DNA of 32,946 bases, taken from Deltaproteobacteria bacterium. Lineage in GTDB: Bacteria; Bdellovibrionota_B; Oligoflexia; Oligoflexales; CAIYRB01. The stretch spans positions 1-32,946 of the forward strand of contig VGTI01000041.1 of NCBI GenBank assembly GCA_016874735.1, read 5' to 3'. The notes under the pieces were generated by a model. The model did not search any database. It was not told the DNA's origin and saw only the letters and a program-made list of their open reading frames with translations. The translations under genes and the position numbers were made by a program. Shown piece after piece: positions 14,977 through 31,800 of this stretch (its first letter is position 1; every line of letters begins with the position of its first letter).

Positions 14977-15172
14977 CGTTCAAAATTGGGATGTTGAATA
15001 CTGCTGGCTTAGTGACGCAAACTACTAAGATAGCGTCATCAAAATGTAGTTTTTATGCATCTATCAACCTCTTGACGGAGGTTCGACCGATTTGAAGGCG
15101 CCGTGCAATCTCTGATTGGCTTACTCCTCGTTTATGAAGAGTCTTAACCTTATCGGCATGCATACCGGCTGT
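14977..15172 (-). repeat. Direct repeat, left copy
   Basis: This 196-bp segment aligns without gaps to 32,751-32,946. The 69 bp outside the recombinase gene differ at 8 positions, while the last 127 bp (15,046-15,172) are identical. It contains the 3' end of the recombinase gene and a candidate crossover site. The true repeat may be longer, because the right copy is cut by the window edge. Confidence 0.92.
15013..15038. other. Candidate recombination (res-like) site, left
   Basis: TGACGC-N14-GCGTCA forms a 26-bp dyad just downstream of the recombinase stop codon. The right copy at 32,787-32,812 keeps both arms and the spacing but differs at two central positions. Conserved arms with a central crossover region are what small serine recombinases bind. 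Assignment as the crossover site is inference. Confidence 0.45.
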
Positions 15173-15622
15173 CAGTGGTCGGCCATGTGGTCGGCCTTTT
15201 TTACGCGCTTCAGCAATCCCAGCTCTAATTCTTTCGGAAAGAAGATCCCGCTCGAATTCAGCAAAAACGCTGAGCATGCCAGCGAATGCCCGACCTGATG
15301 GGGTTGTGAAGTCAAGTGCTTCAGTAATGGAAACAAAACCAACACCTACTTCTGTTAGGGTTTGCAATGATGAAACTAAATCCACAATGGACCGGCCCCA
15401 GCGATCAAGCTTCCAGACAATGATGGCATCAATTTCCCGTCGAATTGCGGCGCTGATAAGATCTTGTCGCTTCTGTCGGTGAGCTCTTCCTGATCCGACT
15501 TCTTCTACTACTGAAACAAGTTGCCACTTTCTCTTACGAGCATAGGATTTCATAGCCGTTATCTGAGCTGAAAGTGTCTTTTGATCTGATGTTGAGACTC
15601 TTGCATAGCATGCAGCTCGCAT
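15053..15622 (-). CDS. Small serine recombinase (resolvase/invertase family)
   Basis: This 189-residue protein has the size and order of Tn3-type resolvases and invertases. The N-terminal catalytic domain begins MRAACYARVSTSDQ, with nucleophile Ser10 and Arg8. It continues with VWKLDRWGRS (the conserved active-site Arg motif), FTTPSGRAFAGMLSVFAEFERDL and SERIRAGIAEARKKGRPHGR, which links the dimerisation helix to the DNA-binding domain. The C-terminal HTH (VKTLHKRGVSQSEIARRLQIGRTSVKRLI) is intact. The enzyme exchanges strands between paired res or inversion sites. The same 3' end occurs again at the right edge of the window. It diverges from the IS4-type remnant, with a 26-bp palindrome in between. 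Confidence 0.93.
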   Translation of the reverse strand: MRAACYARVSTSDQKTLSAQITAMKSYARKRKWQLVSVVEEVGSGRAHRQKRQDLISAAIRREIDAIIVWKLDRWGRSIVDLVSSLQTLTEVGVGFVSITEALDFTTPSGRAFAGMLSVFAEFERDLLSERIRAGIAEARKKGRPHGRPLTAGMHADKVKTLHKRGVSQSEIARRLQIGRTSVKRLIDA

Positions 15623-16314: not shown

Positions 16315-16626
16315 ATGGAATTCAAAACGGTTACAGTTACCGACCTAAAAAAAGATGCCAATAGGCTGTTTGCTGATGTGAGCCGAGATAAACCCCTACG
16401 GATTCTTCACAGAGCGCATGACATCAAGGTGGTGATCACATTGGACCACTACCTAGACCTCATTGCCTATTGGCAGAGCGGGACAAAAACCCAACCCACA
16501 GAAAGAACCCCTCTCGGTGAGCAGCTACAGCGCGTACAGCGAGAATTTAACGAGCTAAACAAAATATTAGATACTGACGCTGATGATGGAGGAGTACGAC
16601 TTGGCAGCAAAGTGGCGCTACCGTAA
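16315..16626 (+). CDS. Antitoxin, Phd/YefM-like
   Basis: This 103-residue protein starts MEFKTVTVTDLKKDANRLFADV, continues with KPLRILHRAHDIKVVITLDHY, and ends in a polar tail with QREFNELNKILD. That is the arrangement of Phd/YefM antitoxins: an N-terminal DNA-binding and dimer domain and a flexible toxin-neutralising C-terminus. GGAG lies 6 bases before the ATG. It overlaps the following toxin gene by 44 bp, typical of co-translated toxin-antitoxin pairs. In this context it would help keep the element in the cell. Confidence 0.7.
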   Translation: MEFKTVTVTDLKKDANRLFADVSRDKPLRILHRAHDIKVVITLDHYLDLIAYWQSGTKTQPTERTPLGEQLQRVQREFNELNKILDTDADDGGVRLGSKVALP

Positions 16627-16909
16627 TAAAGAAGTCGAACATCAGGTTGAACTGCGTGCCTTACAGAAAGCTCTTTTTACGGGTGACCTTGGTACAGCTG
16701 CTCGGTATCTGCAAAAGATTGATGAGCTGATTAAAAATATTGAGGCCTTTCCATACATGGGACAGGCATGCGGTAAAGCAAATTACAGGTACAGTGTGCT
16801 CGGTACCGCATCACCCGGAGAAGGTGATGTATTGGTGTGGAGCTGGGACGGGATTAACTTAGTCGGTGAAGGTATCTACCAAAGCTTGCCGCCTGAATAT
16901 TTGCCATAA
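16583..16909 (+). CDS. Probable toxin, RelE/ParE-like
   Basis: The 108-residue product begins MMEEYDLAAKWRYRNKEVEHQ. A long helical hairpin (ALQKALFTGDLGTAARYLQKIDELIKNIEAFP) is followed by beta strands (YRYSVLGTA, DVLVWSWDGINLVGEGIYQ). The helices-then-sheet order, size and partner fit the RelE/ParE fold. The match is weak and I cannot name a catalytic residue, so the assignment leans on the adjacent Phd-like gene. It starts inside the antitoxin gene in another frame, GGAG being provided by the coding sequence around the start. Confidence 0.55.
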   Translation: MMEEYDLAAKWRYRNKEVEHQVELRALQKALFTGDLGTAARYLQKIDELIKNIEAFPYMGQACGKANYRYSVLGTASPGEGDVLVWSWDGINLVGEGIYQSLPPEYLP

Positions 16910-17873: not shown

Positions 17874-18217
17874 TTGCCGACATCCTTTGAGAGCCTAATT
17901 TTGCCATCTATATCATCAAAAAAAACAATTCGATCGAGTTCGTCAGCGTCGAAGAAGTCAACCTCCACGATTACTAGGAGGTCCAGAGCGCAGGGTTCCG
18001 ATGCATTGCAGTTTCTAAACCAGCTCACGGGAAAGCTCACTTTTGCGAAAGTTATTAGGTCAACGAAAAAGGTCGCAAGACTGTCAGTCCAGCTAGGGCT
18101 TGGGCCTGGGCCAAAAAACTTGGCTACCATCCGCAGCAGTGGGCTGAGTTGGCTCTTCAGGATTTGATAGATAAAGAAGGCCTAAAGGGCGTCACTGTTC
18201 GACTTGACGTAGCTTGA
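17874..18217 (+). pseudogene. Decayed coding region between the TA module and avd
   Basis: This gap holds no intact gene I can support. From 18,059 to the stop at 18,217 one frame reads like real protein: VNEKGRKTVSPARAWAWAKK, LGYHPQQWAELALQDLIDKE, then GLKGVTVRLDVA. It has no usable start and stops lie in frame upstream (17,979 region and 18,056). This looks like the C-terminal remnant of a small HTH-type antitoxin. A 94-residue antisense frame (17,846-18,130) also looks plausible in places (LLVIVEVDFFDADELDRIVF) but overlaps the XRE gene end. I could not decide between them. Confidence 0.35.
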
Positions 18218-18228
18218 CCGAAGCACCA

Positions 18229-18264
18229 TTTCTGCGTCTTCCATAATTTCTGCGTCTTCCATAG
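18229..18264. repeat. Tandem 18-bp repeat before avd
   Basis: Two adjacent copies of TTTCTGCGTCTTCCATAA match at 17 of 18 positions and end one base before the TTG proposed as the avd start. They lie where the DGR operon leader should be. No ribosome site is obvious between them and the gene. Confidence 0.7.
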
Positions 18265-18265
18265 C

Positions 18266-18652
18266 TTGGAGTGTGAAACACCCTTGGCCCTCAAAGATCC
18301 CAAAGTAGTGAGCGATTTAAAGAGCCTCAGTGTAGCCGCCTTCCGCGCCACGAAGCTTCTGCCAAAGCACATGCGACCAAAGATCGGCGGAAGGGTAGAG
18401 GATCACTGCCTAGATGCTTGGCTACTAGGCCGGCAGTTTGCCCTGACTACGAAAGAGCTAAAACCAGGCAATAGCCAGCTACTTCAAGAGGCGCTAGGCC
18501 ATCTGGACAGTGTTGGCTGTCTATTCGAGCTGTGTCTTGAGCTTAGAGCTATCAGTGATGGCCAGTTTGGCGAAATCATCGCGCTGACAGAGGCCATCCA
18601 AAAACAACTCCACGGACTTCTCAAGACCTATGCCGTATCACCTAAATCATGA
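18266..18652 (+). CDS. avd: DGR accessory variability determinant, Avd-like
   Basis: The 128-residue product is nearly all helical and contains RATKLLPKHMRPKIGGRVED, LLQEALGHLDSVGCLFELCL and ELRAISDGQFGEIIALTEAI, then QKQLHGLLKTY. This matches Avd and related S23-like four-helix-bundle proteins, which form a basic pentamer that binds the RT and is needed for cDNA synthesis. Length is typical of Avd. The only start that keeps all helices is TTG at 18266, without a clear ribosome site; this may keep expression low. Its last 23 bases overlap the RT start, so the two are translationally coupled. Identification rests on helix pattern plus position. Confidence 0.82.
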   Translation: MECETPLALKDPKVVSDLKSLSVAAFRATKLLPKHMRPKIGGRVEDHCLDAWLLGRQFALTTKELKPGNSQLLQEALGHLDSVGCLFELCLELRAISDGQFGEIIALTEAIQKQLHGLLKTYAVSPKS

Positions 18653-19652
18653 TCTCCTCGGTCAGGTCTCTAACCTTGGCAACGTGACGCGAGCCTTTCG
18701 TGCCTGCGCTCGCGGTAAAAGGGGGTCTCGCGGCTATCAGCTGATGCAGATGCAGTTGGCTCGTGAGCTGGTTGCCATGAGTCACCAGTTGGCCAGCGGT
18801 GATTGGCCTTGGCAAGCCTACAATAGCTTCGTCGTGTGTGACCCTAAACGGCGGACCATTTACGCGGCACCCTTTAGGGACCGAGTCGTCCACCACGCGA
18901 TCCACCAAGTGATTGCACCGCTGATCGAGCCACTTATCCCGCCCAACTCGTGGGCTTGCCGCAAGACGATGGGTAGCCGCAACGCCGTCAGTGCACTGAC
19001 GGCGACTTTAAAAAAGCTGGGTAACGAGCGCTATACGGTCAAACTCGATGTCGCCAACTACTTTGCCTCGATCAGTCACGAGGTCCTTGGCCAGATGCTC
19101 CGCCGTGTGATGCCGGATCCCTCTCTTGATATCCTGCTCGCGTCACTGCTCAGCTCGCACCCGGAGTATGCTAGGTGCCGCCGTGGCATTCCCCTTGGCA
19201 ACCTAACGTCTCAGCTCTTTGCTAACTTTTACCTAAGCCCAGTCGATCATCTCGCCGCGAGACACGAGGGTGACGTCTTTTACATCCGTTACATGGATGA
19301 CATGGTTTTAGTGGGCGCGAGTAAAAAGACTGTGCTCGATCTAAAAGACCAAATCGTCGCCCTTTGCCAGCGGGAGCTCAGGCTCAAGATTCCTGTCCGT
19401 AAGACGGTGCATCTGGCGTCGGATCCCGTGCCCTTTCTTGGCTTCGTTCTTTATGGCACGGGCTACCACGTCCTTGCGCGGACGAAGAGGCGGCATCGAC
19501 GCAAAGTTAATAAGCTCACGAAGGCGGGCAAGAGAGCGAGCGAGATTGCTGCCGTGGTCGAGTCGTTCGCGGCGTTTGCTAACCTGGACGACGCCTTGCG
19601 CATGGTTTCGAACTCGACTACTGTCACGAGCGGTGGACGGCCTAAGGCGTGA
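18630..19652 (+). CDS. DGR reverse transcriptase
   Basis: This 340-residue RT has no maturase, RNase H or endonuclease domain, as usual for DGR enzymes. Motifs in order: RTIYAAPFRDRVVHHAI (75-91), TVKLDVANYFASISH (136-150, catalytic Asp140), GIPLGNLTSQLFANFYLS (186-203), FYIRYMDDMVLVG (217-229, Asp223-Asp224), LRLKIPVRKT (250-259) and VPFLGFVLYG (267-276). The SQ in LGNLTSQ replaces the SP of group II intron RTs and is a known DGR signature linked to selective infidelity at adenines. It overlaps avd by 23 bp and its stop is 10 bp before the TR. The enzyme would copy TR RNA into mutagenised cDNA together with Avd. Confidence 0.96.
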   Translation: MPYHLNHDLLGQVSNLGNVTRAFRACARGKRGSRGYQLMQMQLARELVAMSHQLASGDWPWQAYNSFVVCDPKRRTIYAAPFRDRVVHHAIHQVIAPLIEPLIPPNSWACRKTMGSRNAVSALTATLKKLGNERYTVKLDVANYFASISHEVLGQMLRRVMPDPSLDILLASLLSSHPEYARCRRGIPLGNLTSQLFANFYLSPVDHLAARHEGDVFYIRYMDDMVLVGASKKTVLDLKDQIVALCQRELRLKIPVRKTVHLASDPVPFLGFVLYGTGYHVLARTKRRHRRKVNKLTKAGKRASEIAAVVESFAAFANLDDALRMVSNSTTVTSGGRPKA

Positions 19653-19662
19653 GCAGCGTAGG

Positions 19663-19781
19663 ACGCGCTGCTTCGGGGGGCGAATTGGAACAATGGCTCG
19701 AACGCCGGTCTGTTCGCCGTCAATCTGAACAATGCGCCGACCAACACGAACACGAACATCGGGTTCCGCTGCGCGCTGCAG
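19663..19781 (+). repeat. DGR template repeat (TR)
   Basis: The 119-bp TR has 26 adenines. Aligned to the VR it differs at 15 positions, all TR adenines (6-8 each to G or C, fewer to T); the 93 non-A positions are identical. Read in the VR frame it encodes ALLRGANWNNGSNAGLFAVN and LNNAPTNTNTNIGFRCALQ, with ten AAY codons and no stop. It begins 10 bp after the RT stop, so it is transcribed with the RT. The last 25 bp (19,757-19,781) are unmutated and equal to the VR end: the IMH* segment. Identity to the VR stops at 19,662 on the left and 19,782 on the right. Confidence 0.97.
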
Positions 19782-19801
19782 ACTTGATCGACCATGCAAG
19801 A

Positions 19802-19823
19802 AGTCTGCTCTCACGGGAGCAGA
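19802..19823 (+). other. Stem-loop 20 bp after the TR
   Basis: GTCTGCTC-TCACGG-GAGCAGAC forms a perfect 8-bp stem. No T run follows. In the Bordetella phage DGR the RNA next to the TR is structured and required for cDNA priming, so this hairpin may be part of the functional DGR RNA here. It could also help end the transcript. Confidence 0.55.
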
Positions 19824-19836
19824 CCATGACTCAGGG

Positions 19837-20493
19837 TCAAGGCACCCGGCCGCTCACCTGGGCTGACCCACCGCTTTTGCGGTGGGGGTCCGAACCCCGC
19901 CCGTCAAGCTTGCGCATGAGCGAGCCAAAGGCCGGCAATACGTCGCGCTCAAGAAACTGGGCCGCCTTCTGGTGCCTTTGGTAAAGGGGAGCATCTGCCG
20001 CCAACACACCGATGATGCTGCCAATGGCGGCCCTAGCCTTATCGTAGTTAAGACGCTTTGCCGCACCAAATCCGTAGTAGCCGGCACCGAGGTGAGAAAG
20101 CACGTCGCGGCACCGGGCGTCAACAAAAGCGGCGAGGTCGGGTGTTTCATCGGCAAAGTTGAGCTGATCGCGGGCCGCTAGGAAAAGACGGTAGCAGGCT
20201 AGGTTGTGTATGGCTGCTGTCGCTAGGGATCCTGCCTTTGACTGAGTCGCCTTAGATGGAGGTGAAGGCGGCTCGCTAGTGCTGACGGGTGCCGCCACTC
20301 CTGCTGCCTCTTTCGTCAACTTGGCGTGAAAGCTCATGAGCGAAGCGCGGTCGACGTACCAGCAGTTGGCCACTTTGACGGCGCGGATCGCTTTGAGCTT
20401 GATGTACTTGCGGACGGTCTTTTCTGACATATGAAGGAGGCTCGCCGCCTCGTCTAGGCCAATCTCCGCGGGTGCTTCTTTGCGCTGGGCCAT
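19837..20493 (-). CDS. HTH plus helical-domain protein, candidate DGR accessory
   Basis: The 218-residue product starts at an ATG with AGAGG about 8 bases before it. Residues 10-58 (IGLDEAASLLHMSEKTVRKY, then IKLKAIRAVKVANCWYVDR) are an excisionase/MerR-type winged HTH. A Pro/Ser linker (60-88) leads to an all-helical domain of about 105 residues (IHNLACYRLFLAARDQL, DLAAFVDARCRDVLSHL, KARAAIGSIIGVLAADAP, AAQFLERDVLPAFGSLM). That helical domain is reminiscent of a bundle like Avd, but I cannot show homology. The gene lies between TR and VR on the target's strand, its 3' end 55 bp from the TR. Possible roles are regulator of the DGR or target recognition. An 8-bp-stem hairpin (19,867-19,886) lies inside its 3' end. 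Confidence 0.72.
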   Translation of the reverse strand: MAQRKEAPAEIGLDEAASLLHMSEKTVRKYIKLKAIRAVKVANCWYVDRASLMSFHAKLTKEAAGVAAPVSTSEPPSPPSKATQSKAGSLATAAIHNLACYRLFLAARDQLNFADETPDLAAFVDARCRDVLSHLGAGYYGFGAAKRLNYDKARAAIGSIIGVLAADAPLYQRHQKAAQFLERDVLPAFGSLMRKLDGRGSDPHRKSGGSAQVSGRVP

Positions 20494-21130
20494 CGTGGAT
20501 CCTCTTTCTTTGTATCGTTGCCGTCAGGTGTAGGCGTCGACGAGGTCGTCGATTATGCACGAGCAAGGCAGCCTTCGGGTAGGGAGAAGTGGAAAGCCTT
20601 CCGGAAGTTCCGGAACTTCAGCCGGCAAAAAAGCCAATGATTTACTAATAAACCGCCTTCCGTTTGTTTATAGAAAACTGCAAAAGGATTCATCAGCACC
20701 CATTTTAAAGTGATTAATACCGGATGCTTAAAGAGAACCGGAAAGGCGCAAAATGTTACCGCTCGGACTTTCCACTTCTCCCCCGCCCCTTTCCGGAAGT
20801 TCCGGAAGGGTGCCTAAAAAAGGCCTAAAATACAGAAAAATTAGTAAGAAGTTACCCATAGAAATCGAGTGGTTGTTAGAAAGTTCCGGAACTTCCGGAA
20901 CGTTCCGGTTGGTCCAAGCCCTTCCGGAAGCCCTGAAGTTCCGAAATGGGACGATTTTGCAGGCACCTAAAATCTTGGAGGCTAGTTAAAAAATAGGCAA
21001 ACCAAGTAAAATTAGATGTTTAAGAAAAACGACCCTAGTCCAGACACCGAGAAGTGGAAAGGAGAAGTGGAAAGGCATCCGGAACTTCCGGAACCACCCT
21101 TTCCGGAACTTCCGGAACTTCCGGAAGGCC
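20494..21130. repeat. TTCCGGAA palindrome array in a gene-free stretch
   Basis: No gene is supported here. The stretch holds eleven copies of the palindrome TTCCGGAA (starts 20599, 20608, 20791, 20800, 20884, 20893, 20922, 21086, 21101, 21110, 21119) plus half copies. Neighbours are often exactly 9 bp apart, in pairs or a triplet. GAGAAGTGGAAAG occurs three times (about 20,584, 21,048, 21,061) and once inverted (about 20,764), always beside the palindromes. A 78-codon frame at 20,753-20,989 is built of these repeats and is not believed. The array lies between the HTH gene's promoter and the VR hairpin and may bind a DGR or plasmid protein. Confidence 0.8.
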
Positions 21131-21164
21131 AAAAAAATTTCCGCCCAGCTGTCGCTGGGCGGAA
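21131..21164 (-). terminator. Hairpin downstream of the VR, also a terminator
   Basis: On the minus strand TTCCGCCCAGC-GACA-GCTGGGCGGAA forms a perfect 11-bp stem, followed by ATTTTTTT. It starts 54 bp after the end of the VR. It is a textbook terminator for the target gene. The GACA loop also fits the GRNA tetraloop described for hairpins that follow the IMH in phage DGRs and help target recognition, so it may do both jobs. Confidence 0.85.
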
Positions 21165-21212
21165 GAAACTCAATGATTAATGATCTAATGACACAATGAC
21201 TAAATGATCACC

Positions 21213-24200
21213 CTAAGGCTGCAGCGCGCAGCGGAACCCGATGCCCGTGTGCGTGTAGGTCGGCGCAGAGGCCAGACCGACGGCGAACAGACCGGCGACC
21301 GAGCCATGGTGCCAATCCGCCCCCCGAAGCAGCGCGTTCCCTGCAGCCGTGCAGCCATAGTATTGACCCGCACCGTTCGCGGATGTGAGCGCGCCGCTGG
21401 GGCCTGCGACCTTCTTCTCCCAGTCTGTGACATTGGCGTTATCCCACTGGACCCAGCCAGTGTTGTACCAATTAACACTCGTGCACTGCATATCGGTCCA
21501 CTCCCAGACGTTACCGGAGAGGTCCCAGATCACGTTGCCGTTACTCAGGACGTGGGTGCGCATTTGCGAGTTGTTGGCCGCCCCTGCAGAATAACCAGTG
21601 GTTGCATAGGACTGACCGGTGCCTGAGTAAATGTTGGTGTCTGTCCTAAGTGAGCAGGAAGCATTAGCTGCGTCCGCTAAAGACGCGGTGAGCGTGCAGT
21701 TAGTTACAGCCCCTTCGGTAGTAGCAGCAAGAGCATTAGCTGGGACGTTGTCAGTGTGTCCTGTCGCCAGTTGGATCCCAGCCGTCGAGTTGATATCGTT
21801 AATGGCCGTGGCCTCAATGTTGCGCGCCATCGTCATCCACTCGCCCTCAGTCACAAGATGGGCGCCGACACGCTGGCAGACGTCTTTGGCCTCGTACCAG
21901 CTGATACTGACAAATGGTGTACCGGAAGCGGTTGAGACTGGAAGGCCCGTGGTGCTGTCTTTTTTGGCCTCGTACTTCATGACGCAAAAGTCTTTAAAGC
22001 TAAACCTGTCATCTTTTGGGACTAACACATAGCCGGTGGGACAGGTCCCAGATCCTGAACCGGCGGTGGCATTAATCGTGATCGCGCCAGCCGTATTGTC
22101 GATGGTGACACCGGTGCCTGCCGTGAGAGTTGAAAGAGTGAAACCAGTGCCGTTACCGATGAGTAGTTGGCCGTTCGCTGCGCTCGATCCATCGACACCA
22201 ATGCCGCCTCTAGCTGCACTGAGAGTACCAGAGCTGATCAACGCAGCACTATGTGGCGGGAGATCCGAGGCTTCAAGGGTGAGACCTTCGATGGCGCGGC
22301 CTTTCGCGTCGATTCTAAGTTTGGCGTAGGTACCTGCCACAATGCCGGTAGTTGATAGTGATGCTGTCGCAGATCCAGGCCCTGAGGCGGCGACATCACC
22401 GGTGAGTGCCGTCAGGTAGCTGCCTGCAGCCTGTTTACTGTTAAACGTGGTCCAGTCGGTGGCCGTTAGGTAGCCGTCGGTAGAGGTGGAAGACTGCGGA
22501 ATTTTATTTGCCGGTAGTGCCGGGATTTCTGAGGCTGAGATTGCGGCGACAGTGACAGTGCCACCGTTTGACGTTTGTTTTAGAAACTGACCAGCCCCGC
22601 CCGTGCTAGCTAGATTTGCACCAGTGCCGCCGTTTGCAACTCCAAGAGTGCCGTTCACAGCATTAGTGGAGGCAAGATTCACGGTGCCGAACGTAGGTTG
22701 GTTGCTCGCATTCACCGTTAGGATATTGTACTGACTGCCTGCGGCCGTCGATGAGAGAGCTGAGCTGGACCCGATCACTACACCGTTATTGGTGAAAGCA
22801 CCGACGCCGGTACCGCCGTTGGCTATGGCCAGGGTGCCGGTCGTCAGGCTAGTGGCACTGATGGGTGGAAGATCACCGGGCTCAAGAGTCGCGCCGCTGA
22901 TGACGCGGCCTTTAGAGTCGGTGGTCACTTTAGTATAGTTGCCAGCAGTGCCCACAGCCGCAAGAGTGGGGTCTGGGAAGTTACCAGTGAGATCACCGCC
23001 CGCTGCACCTGTAGGCGCGACACCAGAGACCCAGTTGAGGGTCCCAGTACCGTTGGTTGAGAGCACTTGGCCAGCTGAGCCGTTAGTACCGGGTAGCTCC
23101 CACGTGAGCTGCGACGAAAGCGTATCGGGAGCTTTAAAGGCGACGAAGTTAGTGTTGGCTTTGTCGTTTAAGACGAGCTTGCTAGCGTTTGTACTGTCGC
23201 CTCTGACGGTGACGTCCCCATTAGATGTCACTGTCGAGGCTGTGAGAGCTCCAGTAGCCGCTGTGCCGGTCGTATTGATGGTGGTGGAGCCACCGATACT
23301 TGATGCTCCGTTGATCGTGGCGCCAGTTATAGTTTTGTTGGTCAGTGTTTCTGGGGCATCACGCGTCACGACTACGCCTGAAGCCGGAAACGTGGCTGTA
23401 GAAATGACACCGGTACCACCGTTACTCCTATCCAAGATCCCGCCGACCGAAGCTGCCTTAGAAAGGTCAATAGCACCAAAGGAAGGCTGACCCCCAGCGC
23501 TCGGCACGCGCAGAACCTGGTCAGCGCTCGGTGAGGCCGTCGCCACCAGATTACCGGTGCCGTTACCTAAAAGGACGCCGTTTAGGTTGAAGTTTGTGCT
23601 ACCAGTACCACCTACGGCGACGGCTAGTTGCCCACTCGTAATCTTCGCTGCATTTAACTCTGGGATATCAGCTGCAGCTAAGGCGGTACTGCTTATGACC
23701 TGACCCTGGGCGTTTGTGATGACTTTGGCGTAAGTGCCAGCCGTACCGATATTGGCAAGACTCACGGTCACAGTTCCACTAGCAGGCGAGGCCGCGATGC
23801 CAGTGCCTGCACTAACGCTACTTACTTTATTTGAAAACGATGTGTAATCGGCGTTGGAAATTAGCCCTGCACTGACACCTGCTCCTGCCGAAGCCAGCGG
23901 GATATTGAGTGTATGGACACTGCCCACCGGTGTAAACGCTAGGCTGCTCCCATTGGTGGTGGTAGCAAAACTCTGCTCGCCAGCCGTGACCCCGCCTAGG
24001 CTCGTGACGCCTACGCCAGCTATGCCAAGCGCCTTGACGGCAGAGCCGTCCCAGTATTTGATTTGACCAGAGTTCTCGTTAAACCAGGTTTTGCCTTTGT
24101 CGTTAGTTGTGAGTCCAGTCGGATCCGCTGTGTGTGCGCTAAGGCCTAGGGTCTTAGACGCAGCCATCTCAATACTGCCGGCATTGGCAAGGGCGTTAGC

Positions 24201-26078
24201 GTTCATGTCGATTGCGCCAGTCATGGTGTCGCCACCTTTGTTTAGCGGCGTGTAGCCAAGGGCGTTTTGTTTGGCGTTAAAAGTTGTCCAGTCCGTAGCT
24301 GTCAGATAGCCATCGGTTGAGGTGGTAGCCTGCGGTATTTTATTTGCCGGTAGTGCCGGGATTTCTGAGGCTGAGATAGCGGCGACAGTAACGGTGCCAC
24401 CGTTTGACGTCTGTTTTAGAAACTGTCCTACGCCACCTGTGGCGCTAAGGTCTACTCCCGTACCACCGCTTGCAAGTGGGAGGACACCACTCACGGCAGA
24501 CGGGCTAGCGATGTTTAGAGCGCCAAATGACGGCACACCACCAGTCGTTGGTACCCGCAAGATCTGGTCGGCGCTGCCCGCTGCGGTGGTGAGTAGATTT
24601 CCTGCGTCGTTTCCAAGCACAACACCGTTCGCTGTGAAGTTCGTTGCTCCGGTGCCACCATTGGCGACTCCGAGAGTGCTGGATACCTCCGTTGCAAGGT
24701 TGATGTTGCCGCCACTGGCGGCTTCAGTAATCCGACCTTGTGCATCAACCGTAATCGTAGCGCGTGCGTAAGTGTTTGGGGTCACTCCGGTGGTGGAGAG
24801 ACTGATGGTCCCACTGCTCGTGATCGGGCCGCCGGTAAGCCCAGTCCCCGTAGCCACACTGGTAACAGAGCCGCCACTGGCGAGCTTGGTGTAGGCGCTG
24901 CCATTCTCCGAGACCTTAAATTCGTTTGTACTTTGATCGAAATAAATGCGGCCATGTCCGCTGCTACTCAGCGCTGGGGCTGTGGTTGCTGGGAGTGATA
25001 ACTGCGCAAGAGATAATTCACCAGTCACCGTATCGCCAGCTTTATTGAGCGGTGTGTAACCAAGTGAGGCGGTGATATCAGCGCTAGCGATTGTCCCTAC
25101 CGTGACGATACCGCCAGAGGTCGTTTGTTTGAGGTAGTGCCCTGCGCCACCAGTAGCACTGAGATCGGCACCGGTACCTCCGTTGGCGCGCGCAAGTACA
25201 CCCGTCACAGCAGCAGGCGAGCCCAAATTGACGCGACCAAACTCAGGACCACTGGCGCCCACTACAAGGACGTTATTTTGTACGCCGGGAGCTGTGGCCG
25301 AAATCGGTCCAGCGCCAGCTCCGACCAAGACGCCGTTATTCGTAAAACTTGTAGCTCCGGTCCCGCCACCCAGCACTGCGAGCGCGCCTGAACTAGTGCC
25401 GCTACTCGTGAGCGTTTGCGGCACCCACTCTGTGCCGCTATAGGTCAGCACCTGGCCTGGTTGCGGCGCGGTACTCGAAACCGTTTGTCCCTGGATGCTG
25501 CTGGCTGTTGCCGCGGCGGGAGTGCCCCAGACGAGCTCCCCACCAGCGTTCTTGGTGAGAAACTGGTTCGTAGCTGGAAGGGATTTTAGAGCTAGACCCA
25601 GAGTTCCGTCGCTACCGAAAGAGAGCGTCTTACCGTCTACCGGTACGCGCAACGCAAGAGGCACGTAGCTATACTTCTGACGTGGATAAGTTTTGCCGCC
25701 TGCGGTGATCTCAATAAAAACTGGCTCAGAGCCGTCACCAAATACGGCCTCGACCTGAGAAGGCATGAGATTGATATTAAGACTTATGACGCCGTTAGTG
25801 GGAAATACCCCTGTGTAAGGGTAGTTCTGGCCTAGTTGAGTGCCACCCGCTTCAGCAGTGTAAAACCTCACATCGATGTCGAGAGGCCCATCTATAGGTG
25901 ACCCGTTAGCATTCGTCAGTCGTGCCGAGTAGACGAGTGGGTAGTAAGAAGCAGCTGCCACGGACTCACGGGTAAAAAGTAAACCTAACACCAGCAAGGC
26001 AACTTCAAGACCGTTGCATCGCCGATGTAGTAGTCCTTGTTTTCCCTTTGCTCTGCCCATGGTTCCTGGCCCTGCCAC
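21213..26078 (-). CDS. DGR target: giant exported repeat protein with FGE/C-type-lectin-like tip
   Basis: The 1,621-residue protein starts at GTG 26,078; an ATG six codons later (26,060) is an equally good start. A basic stretch and hydrophobic core (LEVALLVLGLLFTRESVAAA) form a signal peptide. Residues about 45-160 (YPLVYSARLTNANGSPIDG, DIDVRFYT) are a beta domain seen in surface proteins of predatory and Oligoflexia-type bacteria. Residues 160-1340 hold many fibre-like repeats (LGVANGGTGA, NNGVVIG, YLTATDWTTFN, LGYTPLNKGGDT). Residues 1346-1616 form an FGE-sulfatase/C-lectin-type domain (CPTGYVLVPK, GAHLVTEGEW, DLSGNVWEW, GIGFRCALQ). The VR covers 1581-1620, with variable residues 1588, 1590, 1591, 1594, 1601, 1603, 1604, 1608, 1610 and 1612. 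It is probably a cell-surface fibre with a hypervariable binding tip. Confidence 0.93.
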   Translation of the reverse strand: MAGPGTMGRAKGKQGLLHRRCNGLEVALLVLGLLFTRESVAAASYYPLVYSARLTNANGSPIDGPLDIDVRFYTAEAGGTQLGQNYPYTGVFPTNGVISLNINLMPSQVEAVFGDGSEPVFIEITAGGKTYPRQKYSYVPLALRVPVDGKTLSFGSDGTLGLALKSLPATNQFLTKNAGGELVWGTPAAATASSIQGQTVSSTAPQPGQVLTYSGTEWVPQTLTSSGTSSGALAVLGGGTGATSFTNNGVLVGAGAGPISATAPGVQNNVLVVGASGPEFGRVNLGSPAAVTGVLARANGGTGADLSATGGAGHYLKQTTSGGIVTVGTIASADITASLGYTPLNKAGDTVTGELSLAQLSLPATTAPALSSSGHGRIYFDQSTNEFKVSENGSAYTKLASGGSVTSVATGTGLTGGPITSSGTISLSTTGVTPNTYARATITVDAQGRITEAASGGNINLATEVSSTLGVANGGTGATNFTANGVVLGNDAGNLLTTAAGSADQILRVPTTGGVPSFGALNIASPSAVSGVLPLASGGTGVDLSATGGVGQFLKQTSNGGTVTVAAISASEIPALPANKIPQATTSTDGYLTATDWTTFNAKQNALGYTPLNKGGDTMTGAIDMNANALANAGSIEMAASKTLGLSAHTADPTGLTTNDKGKTWFNENSGQIKYWDGSAVKALGIAGVGVTSLGGVTAGEQSFATTTNGSSLAFTPVGSVHTLNIPLASAGAGVSAGLISNADYTSFSNKVSSVSAGTGIAASPASGTVTVSLANIGTAGTYAKVITNAQGQVISSTALAAADIPELNAAKITSGQLAVAVGGTGSTNFNLNGVLLGNGTGNLVATASPSADQVLRVPSAGGQPSFGAIDLSKAASVGGILDRSNGGTGVISTATFPASGVVVTRDAPETLTNKTITGATINGASSIGGSTTINTTGTAATGALTASTVTSNGDVTVRGDSTNASKLVLNDKANTNFVAFKAPDTLSSQLTWELPGTNGSAGQVLSTNGTGTLNWVSGVAPTGAAGGDLTGNFPDPTLAAVGTAGNYTKVTTDSKGRVISGATLEPGDLPPISATSLTTGTLAIANGGTGVGAFTNNGVVIGSSSALSSTAAGSQYNILTVNASNQPTFGTVNLASTNAVNGTLGVANGGTGANLASTGGAGQFLKQTSNGGTVTVAAISASEIPALPANKIPQSSTSTDGYLTATDWTTFNSKQAAGSYLTALTGDVAASGPGSATASLSTTGIVAGTYAKLRIDAKGRAIEGLTLEASDLPPHSAALISSGTLSAARGGIGVDGSSAANGQLLIGNGTGFTLSTLTAGTGVTIDNTAGAITINATAGSGSGTCPTGYVLVPKDDRFSFKDFCVMKYEAKKDSTTGLPVSTASGTPFVSISWYEAKDVCQRVGAHLVTEGEWMTMARNIEATAINDINSTAGIQLATGHTDNVPANALAATTEGAVTNCTLTASLADAANASCSLRTDTNIYSGTGQSYATTGYSAGAANNSQMRTHVLSNGNVIWDLSGNVWEWTDMQCTSVNWYNTGWVQWDNANVTDWEKKVAGPSGALTSANGAGQYYGCTAAGNALLRGADWHHGSVAGLFAVGLASAPTYTHTGIGFRCALQP
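21219..21337 (-). repeat. DGR variable repeat (VR)
   Basis: The 119-bp VR ends two codons before the stop of the target gene. Relative to the TR the ten Asn (AAY) codons now read Asp, His, His, Val, Gly, Ala, Ser, Tyr, His and Gly. No change is seen outside template adenines. The unmutated 25 bp at its 3' end (21,219-21,243) are the expected initiation-of-mutagenic-homing (IMH) site. The first base after it differs (C in place of TR A). Confidence 0.97.
22440..24460 (-). repeat. Internal DNA repeats within the target gene
   Basis: Segments of about 120 bp around 22,467-22,590 and 24,310-24,425 are nearly identical and encode the same KIPQ...STSTDGYLTATDW and TVTVAAISASEIPALPANKI units. Weaker copies of the NGGTG unit recur along the gene. 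Such DNA-level identity points to recent duplication and would allow length change by recombination. Confidence 0.75.
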
Positions 26079-26506
26079 ATCGTAGACATCAGTTCTGTGT
26101 GGCTAAGTTAGGTTATCGGAACCGAAGGGTGAAACTTGAGGTTTAAAAATTGAGCACTTATAGGGTCAAAGTTACGTGAAGTTAGGACCTAGTGTCAGGT
26201 TTTTTTACACCACGCATCTTACGCACGGTGACCCTGGAAACTTGGAGTCCTGCTCCTTGGAAACCCTGTGGCTTTAAAAGCCCCTTCCAATGCCTTTTCC
26301 CTTCGCTTCGCTACGCCTTCGTCCGTCCCTGATGGGACGGCCTCAGTTGCTTTAGTGATTTCTACACACCCTATGCACCTAAAGTGCTGGGGGCGCATCG
26401 CTAGTGGATGCAAGTTGCCGTGATGATGGTCGTTATACGTATACCTACGTATACGATCGTGACACGTACAAGATTCTAATCTTACGGAATCAATGACTTC
26501 TTTCGG

Positions 26507-29481: not shown

Positions 29482-30603
29482 TTACTTCCAAGCCTCCGTG
29501 TGATCGCTACTAGCCTCCCCAAACGAAGTATCTTCCTGAGGCTGCTGGTCTTTCTCGTCGAACAAAGTGCGAAAATAGGCATGCCGCTTTTCAAACTCTT
29601 CTGGCGCCGGCCAGCATCCGTTTTGTCGCATTCGCTTCATAAGCAGCGCCAAGGGTTCGTGAATCGTTTTGCCGCTCGACGTGTGGCGTAGCTCGAAATC
29701 AAAGTGCACTAGCGAACGCTGCACGACGTCAAAGGGGATCCCTAAGCTGCGCAACTGGAGAACTTGTGATTTGCCAAACCCGATGTCGGTCAGCATCGAG
29801 TAGTCCAAGTCCGCGGGTGACCATTCATCTTCTATGCGCGCGCGCGTTTCGGCAGTAGTAGTAGTTAAGAAATTAGTATTTATATAACTACTACTACTAG
29901 GGGGATTTGGCTCCGATCCTGGCTCCGATCCTGGCTCCGAATTGGCTCTGTTTTGGCTCCGAATTGGCTCCGATCCGGCTCTGATTTTGCTCACTGTGAG
30001 GTCCCGGTACACCGGCTCGGGGAGTAAATATCGAGTCCAGCCGCCCGGCCCTTTTTTAAACTGGTATCGGGAAACCCAGCCACTCTCTTCTAGTCTCTGC
30101 AAAGCCTTCTTAACCGCGCTGGGAGTGCTTTTCACTGCTGTTGCCAAATCGCCGCTGAAGATTTTTTCGCTCACGCGGCTTCCAGAAAATCGGCACGAGT
30201 CGTACACGAAATCGAGGCAGCGACTTTGAAGGCGCGACAGGTCTGCCAGCCCAAATTTTGGCTCCGATCCTGGCTCCGAATTGGCTCTGTTTTGGCTCCG
30301 AATTGGCTCTGATCCGGCTCCGATCCTGGCTCCGAATTCGGATGTTGGATCACCCACAGCGGCCTCGTTTTGGCTCCGAATTGGCTCTGTTTTGGCTCCG
30401 ATTAGGGGCACTTTTGGCTCCGAATTGGCTCTGTTTTGGCTCCGAATTGGCTCTGTTTTGGCTCCGAATTTATCTGACGTAGTATTTGCCGCCGAAGTTT
30501 CGTGGTCTTCCCAAGGCATTGTTAGAGTTTTCTTGGGTAACTCCTTATTCGATTTGGCAATAATTGTTCGCTTCAACCTCTTGTCGTTAAGAGAGAGTGC
30601 CAT
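29482..30603 (-). CDS. Candidate plasmid replication initiator with internal iterons
   Basis: The ATG at 30,603 follows GGGAGGTGAT, an excellent ribosome site, 3 bp after the parA stop; the two form an operon. The 373-residue product has a basic N-terminus, a low-complexity part (45-118) built on SEPIRSQNRAN units, a winged-helix domain (119-200: LSRLQSRCLDFVYDS, VKSTPSAVKKALQRLEESGW, RYLLPEPVYRDL), a second SEPIRSQNRAN part (207-232), a Ser/Thr stretch and a C-terminal helical domain (YSMLTDIGFGKSQVLQLRS). The repeats come from iteron-like DNA. No exact Rep family is recognised. Its role follows from winged helix, iterons and parA; a regulator of parA is the alternative. Confidence 0.62.
   Translation of the reverse strand: MALSLNDKRLKRTIIAKSNKELPKKTLTMPWEDHETSAANTTSDKFGAKTEPIRSQNRANSEPKVPLIGAKTEPIRSQNEAAVGDPTSEFGARIGAGSEPIRSQNRANSEPGSEPKFGLADLSRLQSRCLDFVYDSCRFSGSRVSEKIFSGDLATAVKSTPSAVKKALQRLEESGWVSRYQFKKGPGGWTRYLLPEPVYRDLTVSKIRAGSEPIRSQNRANSEPGSEPGSEPNPPSSSSYINTNFLTTTTAETRARIEDEWSPADLDYSMLTDIGFGKSQVLQLRSLGIPFDVVQRSLVHFDFELRHTSSGKTIHEPLALLMKRMRQNGCWPAPEEFEKRHAYFRTLFDEKDQQPQEDTSFGEASSDHTEAWK
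29854..29898. other. AT-rich stem-loop beside the iterons
   Basis: AGTAGTAGTAGTTA (29,854-29,867) and its exact reverse complement (29,885-29,898) flank a 17-base loop that is almost all A/T. It lies 10 bp from the first iteron cluster, inside the rep candidate gene. An alternating GCGCGCGCGC run lies just left (29,836-29,846). It is a candidate DNA-unwinding element of an origin. Confidence 0.6.
29909..30470. repeat. Iteron-like repeats within the rep gene (candidate origin)
   Basis: Twenty-two copies of GGCTC begin units close to GGCTCCGAATT or GGCTCTGTTTT. Seven lie at 29,909-29,987 and fifteen at 30,260-30,470; spacing is 11 bp in most cases and 12 in a few, so the repeats face one side of the helix. 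The two alternating types make a 22-bp period, and three units (33 bp) give the 11-residue period SEPIRSQNRAN in the protein. The clusters flank the winged-helix coding segment. Iteron plasmids and phage lambda O show comparable initiator-bound repeats, in lambda also inside the gene. Confidence 0.75.
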
Positions 30604-30606
30604 TCA

Positions 30607-31704
30607 TCACCTCCCTAAAGATCGAGCTTCGGGCGCCCGTTTCTTTTTCGAGGTGACACGATTATGAGCTTCATTAATTGACTGCTGCTTTGCAGCGTCG
30701 TTCAATCGAGCCCACACCTCTAGGATCACTTCACGCATTTCATCAGCGACAATACTTGTTGGACAGTATTCGGGTAGAGAGAGGTGCGATGCGATAGCCT
30801 CTTCACCATGAACCGACTCTCTTATCGCTCCGCCAGTGCAGCCTGGCACGTGTGCCAAATACCAGGAGCGTATTTCGGCACTGAGCTTCCTTGTGGACGT
30901 GAACTTAGTTGGTACGAAGATATGCGCAAAATTACGCCCAGTATCCCTCTTGAAATTATCGAGGTAGGCCTTGAAGGCCTGATAGTTACGAAAGTTGTTT
31001 ATACGACATTCGAGCGGAGAGATAAGAGCATCACAGGCCATCAGAGCATTAGAAATCAGTAAGTTCCAGTTTGGCGAGCAGTCGAGGATGACAAGATCGT
31101 AGCGAGCCCTGAGGGGTTTGATAACTTTATCTCTAAGCCAGAAATCACGCATATTTCGACTAGAGATTTCTCGTTCCAAAGCTACAAGTTCAGGCGTCTC
31201 TGGAATGAAATCTAGCGTTGGAATGTCCGATTTGATGATTATGTCATCGAGAGTAACTTTACCTTGTGCAAAGTCGGACAGACCATACACGGATCCGATC
31301 TTTTCAAGAGCTGAGTCTAGGTTGTCTGATTCATCAAGATCGACTTGGTAGCCCAGTGCGTTTGTAACATCACACTGCATATCTAGACCAATAATGCACA
31401 CCTTCTGATTATGAAGGGCTGCCAATCTACCAAGATTTAGCGCCAAAGTACTTTTAAGAACGCCGCCTTTTGTCGTGAATACAGCAACTACCATTGAGCC
31501 GCTAAGAGGTTTCATGAATCCGTAGCGCTCGCCAATAAGTGGCAAGTCGGCAATAGTCCAATTTCGACGAGGGTTACTTTTACCTCCCTCTCTTGAGGCT
31601 GCTGGAATCAAGCCAGTATTTTCAGCCTTGATGACAGCTTGTCGGGATACGTCGGCACCGAAGATTTTAAGTACCTTTTGAATCGTATACTTATTGGATT
31701 CCAT
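30607..31704 (-). CDS. parA: ParA-type partition ATPase with N-terminal HTH
   Basis: The ATG at 31,704 has GAGG 6 bases upstream and gives 365 residues; the frame is open to 31,737 without a ribosome site. Residues 1-70 (KYTIQKVLKIFGADVSRQAV, RNWTIADLPLIGERYGF) form a MerR-like HTH as in plasmid ParA proteins that repress their own operon. The ATPase domain has deviant Walker A TTKGGVLKST with its signature Lys, Walker A' LDMQCDVTNALG and Walker B YDLVILDCSPNW. It would segregate the element's DNA. No parB is seen; the downstream rep candidate or an unlinked gene may supply the partner. Confidence 0.9.
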   Translation of the reverse strand: MESNKYTIQKVLKIFGADVSRQAVIKAENTGLIPAASREGGKSNPRRNWTIADLPLIGERYGFMKPLSGSMVVAVFTTKGGVLKSTLALNLGRLAALHNQKVCIIGLDMQCDVTNALGYQVDLDESDNLDSALEKIGSVYGLSDFAQGKVTLDDIIIKSDIPTLDFIPETPELVALEREISSRNMRDFWLRDKVIKPLRARYDLVILDCSPNWNLLISNALMACDALISPLECRINNFRNYQAFKAYLDNFKRDTGRNFAHIFVPTKFTSTRKLSAEIRSWYLAHVPGCTGGAIRESVHGEEAIASHLSLPEYCPTSIVADEMREVILEVWARLNDAAKQQSINEAHNRVTSKKKRAPEARSLGR

Positions 31705-31800
31705 AAACGGCCTCATCAAAAAAGTTCCAGCGCACATCGTTTACATTGATGCTAAATAGTATCATAAAAAAGTCAACCAGCAACTGACGACTCATGTTAC
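31705..31800 (-). promoter_or_regulatory. parA-rep promoter region
   Basis: On the minus strand TTGCTG and TACTAT are separated by 16 bases (about 31,752-31,780), a reasonable sigma-70 promoter some 50 bp before the parA start. The stretch is AT-rich and may hold the ParA operator. The hexamers are not perfect. Confidence 0.35.

Follow-up and report, generated by a model that had tools for sequence, protein, structure and literature searches.

Introduction

The diversity-generating retroelement (DGR) of BPP-1, with its target Mtd, its reverse transcriptase (RT) bRT, and its accessory protein Avd, combines an AAY-rich TR/VR pair with adenine mutagenesis and a C-type-lectin target; its repeats have a GC-rich IMH-like 3' end, and a hairpin with a GRNA loop lies past the VR, at a distance of 4-34 bp in the phage DGRs listed there (PMC3240598). 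Mutagenesis by bRT is reported to be governed by the 3' neighbor of the adenine, and in BPP-1 cDNA a codon change rate of 68% has been reported (PMC12875486). It is also known that AAY codons turn into NNY codons, which encode 15 amino acids without stops (PMC6328139, PMC12875486). The DGR accessory proteins that have been named are Avd, HRDC, and MSL (PMC10053308), and how DGRs recognize their targets is largely open. In the Thermus aquaticus DGR (5VF4; PMC6328139), the variable protein TaqVP is an FGE-type C-type lectin whose variable residues are encoded by AAY codons. The mosaic adhesive trimer (MAT) fibers of Bdellovibrio (Bd2740, bd2133), as described in the passages of PMC10769870 considered here, have a signal peptide followed by a conserved, beta-rich N-terminal domain of about 130 aa, a long shaft, and mosaic tips that include S74 and C-type-lectin types, and they form a large paralogue family; the C-type-lectin tip of Bd2740 has been likened to Mtd, and no DGR on MAT fibers is described in those passages.

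The window, that is, the whole stretch of 32,946 nucleotides analyzed here, contains a locus that is securely identified as a DGR with RT, Avd, TR, VR, and a target of the C-type-lectin type. It shares with BPP-1 the AAY-rich TR/VR pair, the adenine mutagenesis, an RT with Avd, and the target type, and it has a candidate IMH and a candidate target-site hairpin; it differs from BPP-1 in its probably cellular fiber target, in the inverted orientation of that target relative to RT and TR, in an extra HTH/four-helix protein, and in an array of TTCCGGAA palindromes. Whereas TaqVP is a single-domain prophage protein, the comparable domain here is the tip of a 1.6-kaa fiber, and this fiber is built like a MAT fiber, with a beginning that looks like a signal peptide, a domain near the N-terminus that is conserved among its many paralogues, a long shaft, and tips that differ between those paralogues. 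We give a probability of about 0.9 to the whole DGR explanation, including homing into a MAT-like fiber tip to produce new adhesion specificities. Diversification of AAY codons on its own is textbook DGR behavior; what may be a new variant is the cassette with its extra protein, array, and RNA. The open-access literature, as far as our incomplete coverage of it extends, contained neither a DGR on MAT fibers nor an HTH/four-helix DGR accessory protein, and the novelty is therefore provisional.

Results and Discussion

TR/VR pair, RT, and Avd

The core of the retroelement consists of the following features.

18266..18652, + strand: Avd (accessory variability determinant), overlapping the RT start; match to phrog_3206
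18630..19652, + strand: DGR reverse transcriptase, 340 aa, with LGNLTSQ and YMDD intact
19663..19781, + strand: TR, starting 10 nt after the RT stop; read in the frame of the target, it has ten AAY codons
21219..21337, - strand: VR, the closing codons of the target gene, with ten diversified codons
21219..21239, - strand: candidate IMH, a GC-rich 3' end identical in TR and VR (GGGTTCCGCTGCGCGCTGCAG)

When TR and VR (119 nt) are aligned in the target frame, all 15 mismatches fall on TR adenines and none of the 93 non-adenine sites is changed; with 26 A among the 119 TR nucleotides, the chance of such a distribution is 1.9e-12 (hypergeometric). TR and VR do form a 123-nt inverted repeat of 87% identity, as an ordinary diverged repeat without any DGR would, but the confinement of the mismatches to adenines, together with their one-sided direction, already refutes that reading, to which the adjoining DGR RT and Avd and the recurrence of the same pattern in about 33 TR/VR pairs leave a negligible probability. 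The RT motifs, LGNLTSQ at residue 189 and YMDD at residue 221, are of the DGR type ([ILV]GxxxSQ, YxDD). Avd matches the profile phrog_3206, "Avd protein of DGR" (E=2.1e-6), and our own Avd profile (A5) also picks Avd-like genes next to DGR RTs in other phyla.

A sequence-only reading of the window had reported that every one of ten AAY codons was replaced, and the codon alignment bears this out (10/10, to D, H, H, V, G, A, S, Y, H, and G); among the 20 AAY adenines, 15 are changed, 10/10 at the first and 5/10 at the second position. The VR limits given there, 21,219 to 21,337, are likewise exact. Ungapped extension would add a 16th mismatch at 21,218 (ACT to CCT), which we rejected as a product of adenine mutagenesis, the A lying inside a conserved AGACTTG motif. 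This motif is found 3' of the TR in most relatives with differing TR 3' ends, and we therefore take the homology of the repeats to end at 21,219. By analogy with BPP-1, the GGGTTCCGCTGCGCGCTGCAG end is a candidate IMH. No further VR was found in the same assembly.

For this organism we infer the mechanism, together with surface display, a ligand, and ongoing homing in this strain, along the following lines. RNA transcribed from the TR and from the structured spacer that follows it would be copied by an RT-Avd complex, with misincorporation at template adenines. The mutated cDNA would then take the place of the VR, which closes the fiber gene, and each of the ten AAY codons would turn into an almost random NNY codon, at sites that putatively form the binding face of the C-type-lectin-like tip. 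New adhesion specificities would thus be generated, perhaps toward prey or other cells.

Extent and bias of adenine mutagenesis

To place the window among its kin, 33 TR/VR pairs from related loci were pooled, one per locus and with the window included, after omission of three near-duplicate loci. A DGR of this kind yields natural examples of how adenines are mutagenized in settings other than phages. The relatives that can be named are Oligoflexia, Bacteriovoracia, and Bdellovibrionia MAGs, which makes a host of the Bdellovibrionota type likely. In the other 32 pairs, changes have reached 83% of the AAY codons and 55% of the adenines in them, and every AAY codon is changed in 4 of the 33. A change of 10/10 codons has a probability of 0.16 at the pooled codon rate (0.02 at the 68% reported for BPP-1 cDNA), and one of at least 15/20 adenines has a probability of 0.06 at the pooled rate, 15/20 being the top of the 33 pairs. 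Ten changed codons out of ten are ordinary for DGRs, and the window tops the range without lying beyond it. The sequence-only reading had taken the count of adenines to imply high efficiency or several rounds of homing; the pooled probabilities allow both and imply neither. Full randomization is expected to change 75% of adenines, and the number of rounds and the efficiency per round are indistinguishable from 15/20.

That AAY codons yield NNY, and hence 15 amino acids and never a stop, was correctly stated in the same reading and is already published, as cited above. The repertoire of 15 to the power 10 that was derived from it stands as a nominal figure (5.8e11), but the outcomes are skewed: at the 359 natural AAY sites of the pool, the commonest residues are Tyr (81), Ser (67), Asn (58), Gly (46), and Asp (35), which corresponds to about 8.9 effective residues per site. 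Because of this skew, the nominal figure shrinks to roughly 3e9 equally likely proteins, a value taken from pooled data that are already under selection.

Single adenines in Thr and Ile codons had been described as untouched; they are, but there are four such codons rather than three (ACC, ACG, ACG, and ATC), and their sparing is within chance (P for 0/4, 0.21). A protected class of Thr/Ile adenines was rejected, as 26 of 80 internal single first-position adenines are changed in the pool. Lone adenines before C are changed about as often (34/78) as the second A of AAC (128/280; p=0.80). What does differ is the first A of AAY (232/359) versus the second (169/359; Fisher 3e-6) and, sorted by 3' neighbor, A before A (241/378) versus A before C (162/358; p 5e-7), with A before G having the lowest change rate (12/55). 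This pooled neighbor bias, in which protein selection is mixed, fits the BPP-1 bRT report. The preferred replacement is different, in that second adenines mostly become G here, whereas bRT of BPP-1 in NAC gives C (sense strand).

The target and its fiber family

The target gene and its two terminal regions are as follows.

21213..26078, - strand: target gene, encoding at most 1621 aa; the ATG at 26,060 is the likely start
25590..25949, - strand: target N-terminal domain, 47 matches in the genome
21216..22058, - strand: C-terminal tip region (FGE-type/DGR variable-protein-like), used for alignment A2

Judged by eye, the protein has a signal-peptide-like start, which is followed by the conserved N-terminal domain of about 120 aa, a repetitive shaft, and an FGE-type C-type-lectin-like tip that carries the VR. 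At the sequence level the tip matches the FGE-type C-type lectin family PF03781, and its best PDB profile match is the DGR variable protein TaqVP (5VF4, E=4.6e-8); we place the variable residues within the tip by reference to such homologues, and this placement is a predicted one. An AlphaFold2 model of the tip, made with nine homologues, was discarded (pLDDT 39).

The N-terminal domain has 47 dispersed matches in this genome and 4-36 per genome in congeners (6-36 by profile), and it was not found in one Bdellovibrionia genome (G063). At the sequence level, the paralogues have this domain in common and unlike tips; two contain a Peptidase_S74 chaperone domain, and one matches the solved Bdellovibrio fibers bd2133 (8OND, 2e-12) and 8OJN. 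By its architecture and these paralogue matches, the target is likely a member of the MAT fiber family and is probably displayed at the cell surface as a MAT-like fiber. The alternative that it is a prophage tail fiber draws on a weak match to the phage tail-fiber profile phrog_31660 (1.8e-4) and on phage-like shaft repeats; we consider it very improbable in view of the signal-peptide-like start, the dispersed paralogues with different tips and their similarity to Bdellovibrio surface fibers, and the fact that no phage structural genes were noticed near the target. If the target is indeed a MAT-like adhesin, a DGR acting on it in a relative of predators would provide a route to new adhesion, and possibly prey-recognition, specificities.

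Some further members of the family may be recorded. Copies of the N-terminal domain in this same assembly (G000; C18:44616-44975, C20:14308-14664, and C34:17749-18105) lie in giant fiber-like frames of about 15,097, 12,490, and 4,701 aa, respectively. Another stretch (G000:C57:18238-19027, equal to L133:239-1028) is 93% identical in DNA to window positions 25,422-26,211 over 790 nt; this near-copy is a second gene start including its upstream region, the gene is cut by the contig end, and its tip beyond that end could carry another VR. In G010, a remote VR-like tip (L177, C1011:2685-2750) has the fiber N-terminal domain upstream on the same contig and stands apart from that genome's RT, with no TTCCGGAA alongside.

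Structured RNA, accessory protein, and palindrome array

The stretch from the TR to the VR has four further features.

19766..19901, + strand: conserved structured RNA 3' of the TR (AGACTTG ... CAAGGCAC ... hairpin ... GTCCGAA)
19837..20493, - strand: clade-specific accessory protein, excisionase/MerR-type HTH plus Avd-resembling four-helix bundle
20599..21126, no strand assigned: TTCCGGAA palindrome array with 11 copies, separating the HTH gene from the VR
21139..21164, - strand: hairpin with an 11-bp GC-rich stem and a GACA (GRNA-type) loop, followed by a T run

The RNA shows strong covariation (59 double-sided cells versus 17.6 in shuffles and 8-15 in slid controls) and was found in 16 clade loci, most of these matches being training sequences; it was not found in DGR loci of other phyla, and an Rfam scan of 18,000-21,400 gave no match. 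By analogy, it probably forms the spacer portion of the RNA made by the DGR. Wherever both parts can be seen in a relative, a single strand carries the target, then the HTH protein, then Avd, RT, and TR. In the window, the Avd-RT-TR-RNA block is flipped relative to target and HTH gene, an inversion seen only here, and the RNA reaches, in antisense orientation, into the 3' end of the HTH gene. The C-terminal tail of the HTH protein is unlike that of its relatives at this overlap, which probably marks the inversion junction.

The HTH protein is encoded in 16 DGR loci of the clade and in none from other phyla; related cassettes with enough flank encode it, and in the sampled genomes full-length copies occur at DGR loci only. 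Its structural model (pLDDT 80) combines an HTH resembling that of excisionases with a bundle of four helices. The best structural matches of the bundle, over about 100 residues, are 2GSC (Z 14.2) and the Avd structure 4DWL (Z 12.0), Z values that helical bundles can reach by chance. Sequence-profile comparison with Avd revealed no link; by its fold, the modeled C-terminal half may belong with the Avd/S23 four-helix family.

Downstream of the target stop, 11 exact TTCCGGAA sites were counted versus 0.003 expected from shuffles, and TTCCGGAA-N-TTCCGGAA dimers occur in the array and nowhere else in the 4.65-Mb assembly. Most relatives, though not all, have enriched sites. The motif was rejected as a universal feature of the clade: L036 lacks it, L081, L035, and L075 show it weakly, and it was not found in the DGR locus of G010 or beside that genome's remote VR-like copies. 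The hairpin lies 50 nt beyond the stretch that matches the VR, farther than the 4-34 bp of the phage DGRs in PMC3240598, and may be a target-site hairpin and/or a terminator; a clade-wide target signal of the GRNA type was rejected, as near relatives lack the hairpin.

These parts lead us to speculate that the HTH protein is a DNA-binding relative of Avd by which RT, Avd, and RNA are brought as a complex to the TTCCGGAA array past the VR, a proposal that we hold tentatively and regard as rather doubtful. Were it true, a protein-DNA address would pick the target, instead of or besides a hairpin of the BPP-1 type, and any gene with a VR and a TTCCGGAA array could become a target; with a dedicated partner that binds DNA and an array close by, the question of target recognition would also become testable. 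At even odds stands plain autoregulation of the cassette, with the protein as repressor and the array as its operators and with no role in homing, an explanation that concerns the accessory parts only and is compatible with the DGR reading. The excisionase/regulator type of the HTH speaks for it, as does the array, which at almost every locus is found upstream of the gene for the HTH protein. However, in L084 the main TTCCGGAA cluster stays 141-316 nt past the target stop even though, owing to the insertion of a gene, the HTH start is 2.2 kb away, and an Avd-like C-terminal half would be needless in a plain repressor.

Activity

Among relatives, VR divergence restricted to adenines is observed directly, as are the anatomy of the locus, its adenine-only changes, its intact genes, and its conservation. 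L079 and L080 have TRs identical at 111 of 112 positions and VRs that differ at 13 sites, 12 of them at a TR adenine; for L036 and L075, 126 of 127 TR positions agree, and of the 22 sites at which the VRs differ, 21 fall on a TR adenine. Since these VRs differ almost solely at TR adenines, the clade appears to be active, as judged by this proxy from sequence comparison.

In the window copy, whose VR is known from one consensus assembly, the RT, Avd, HTH protein, and target frames are open and the spacer RNA is intact. It is conceivable that this DGR was recently inactivated, its VR being frozen from past homing after a rearrangement split Avd-RT-TR from the target-HTH operon: the block inversion, which could have uncoupled expression, is unique to the window copy, two congeners (G001 and G004) have no close match to RT or TR/VR, and the decayed VR-like relic in a third (G005) tells us that loss happens. 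The intactness of all parts argues against this, and the 93 of 93 non-adenine VR sites that still equal the TR argue for a recent last homing, so that we judge inactivation improbable and favor a working DGR. The G005 relic (L175, in the region C32:146106-146161) is a fragment with the window's 3' TR end (CATCGGGTTCCGCTGCGCGCTGCAG) that lies outside any intact gene, and it shows that targets can be lost.

Neighboring genes

A script-detected candidate pair at 29.9-30.5 kb was rejected, as its repeats lie inside a Rep-like gene with no DGR. On the - strand, 29,482-30,603 and 30,607-31,737 encode a Rep-like protein with SEPIRSQNRANSEP repeats beside ParA, in a stretch that also has ParE- and BrnT/BrnA-type toxin-antitoxin genes and that, by its gene content, appears plasmid- or island-like and adjoins chromosomal-looking genes. 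Near the DGR are a serine recombinase and a weak Phd/ParE-like pair (15,053-15,622, - strand, and 16,315-16,909, + strand).
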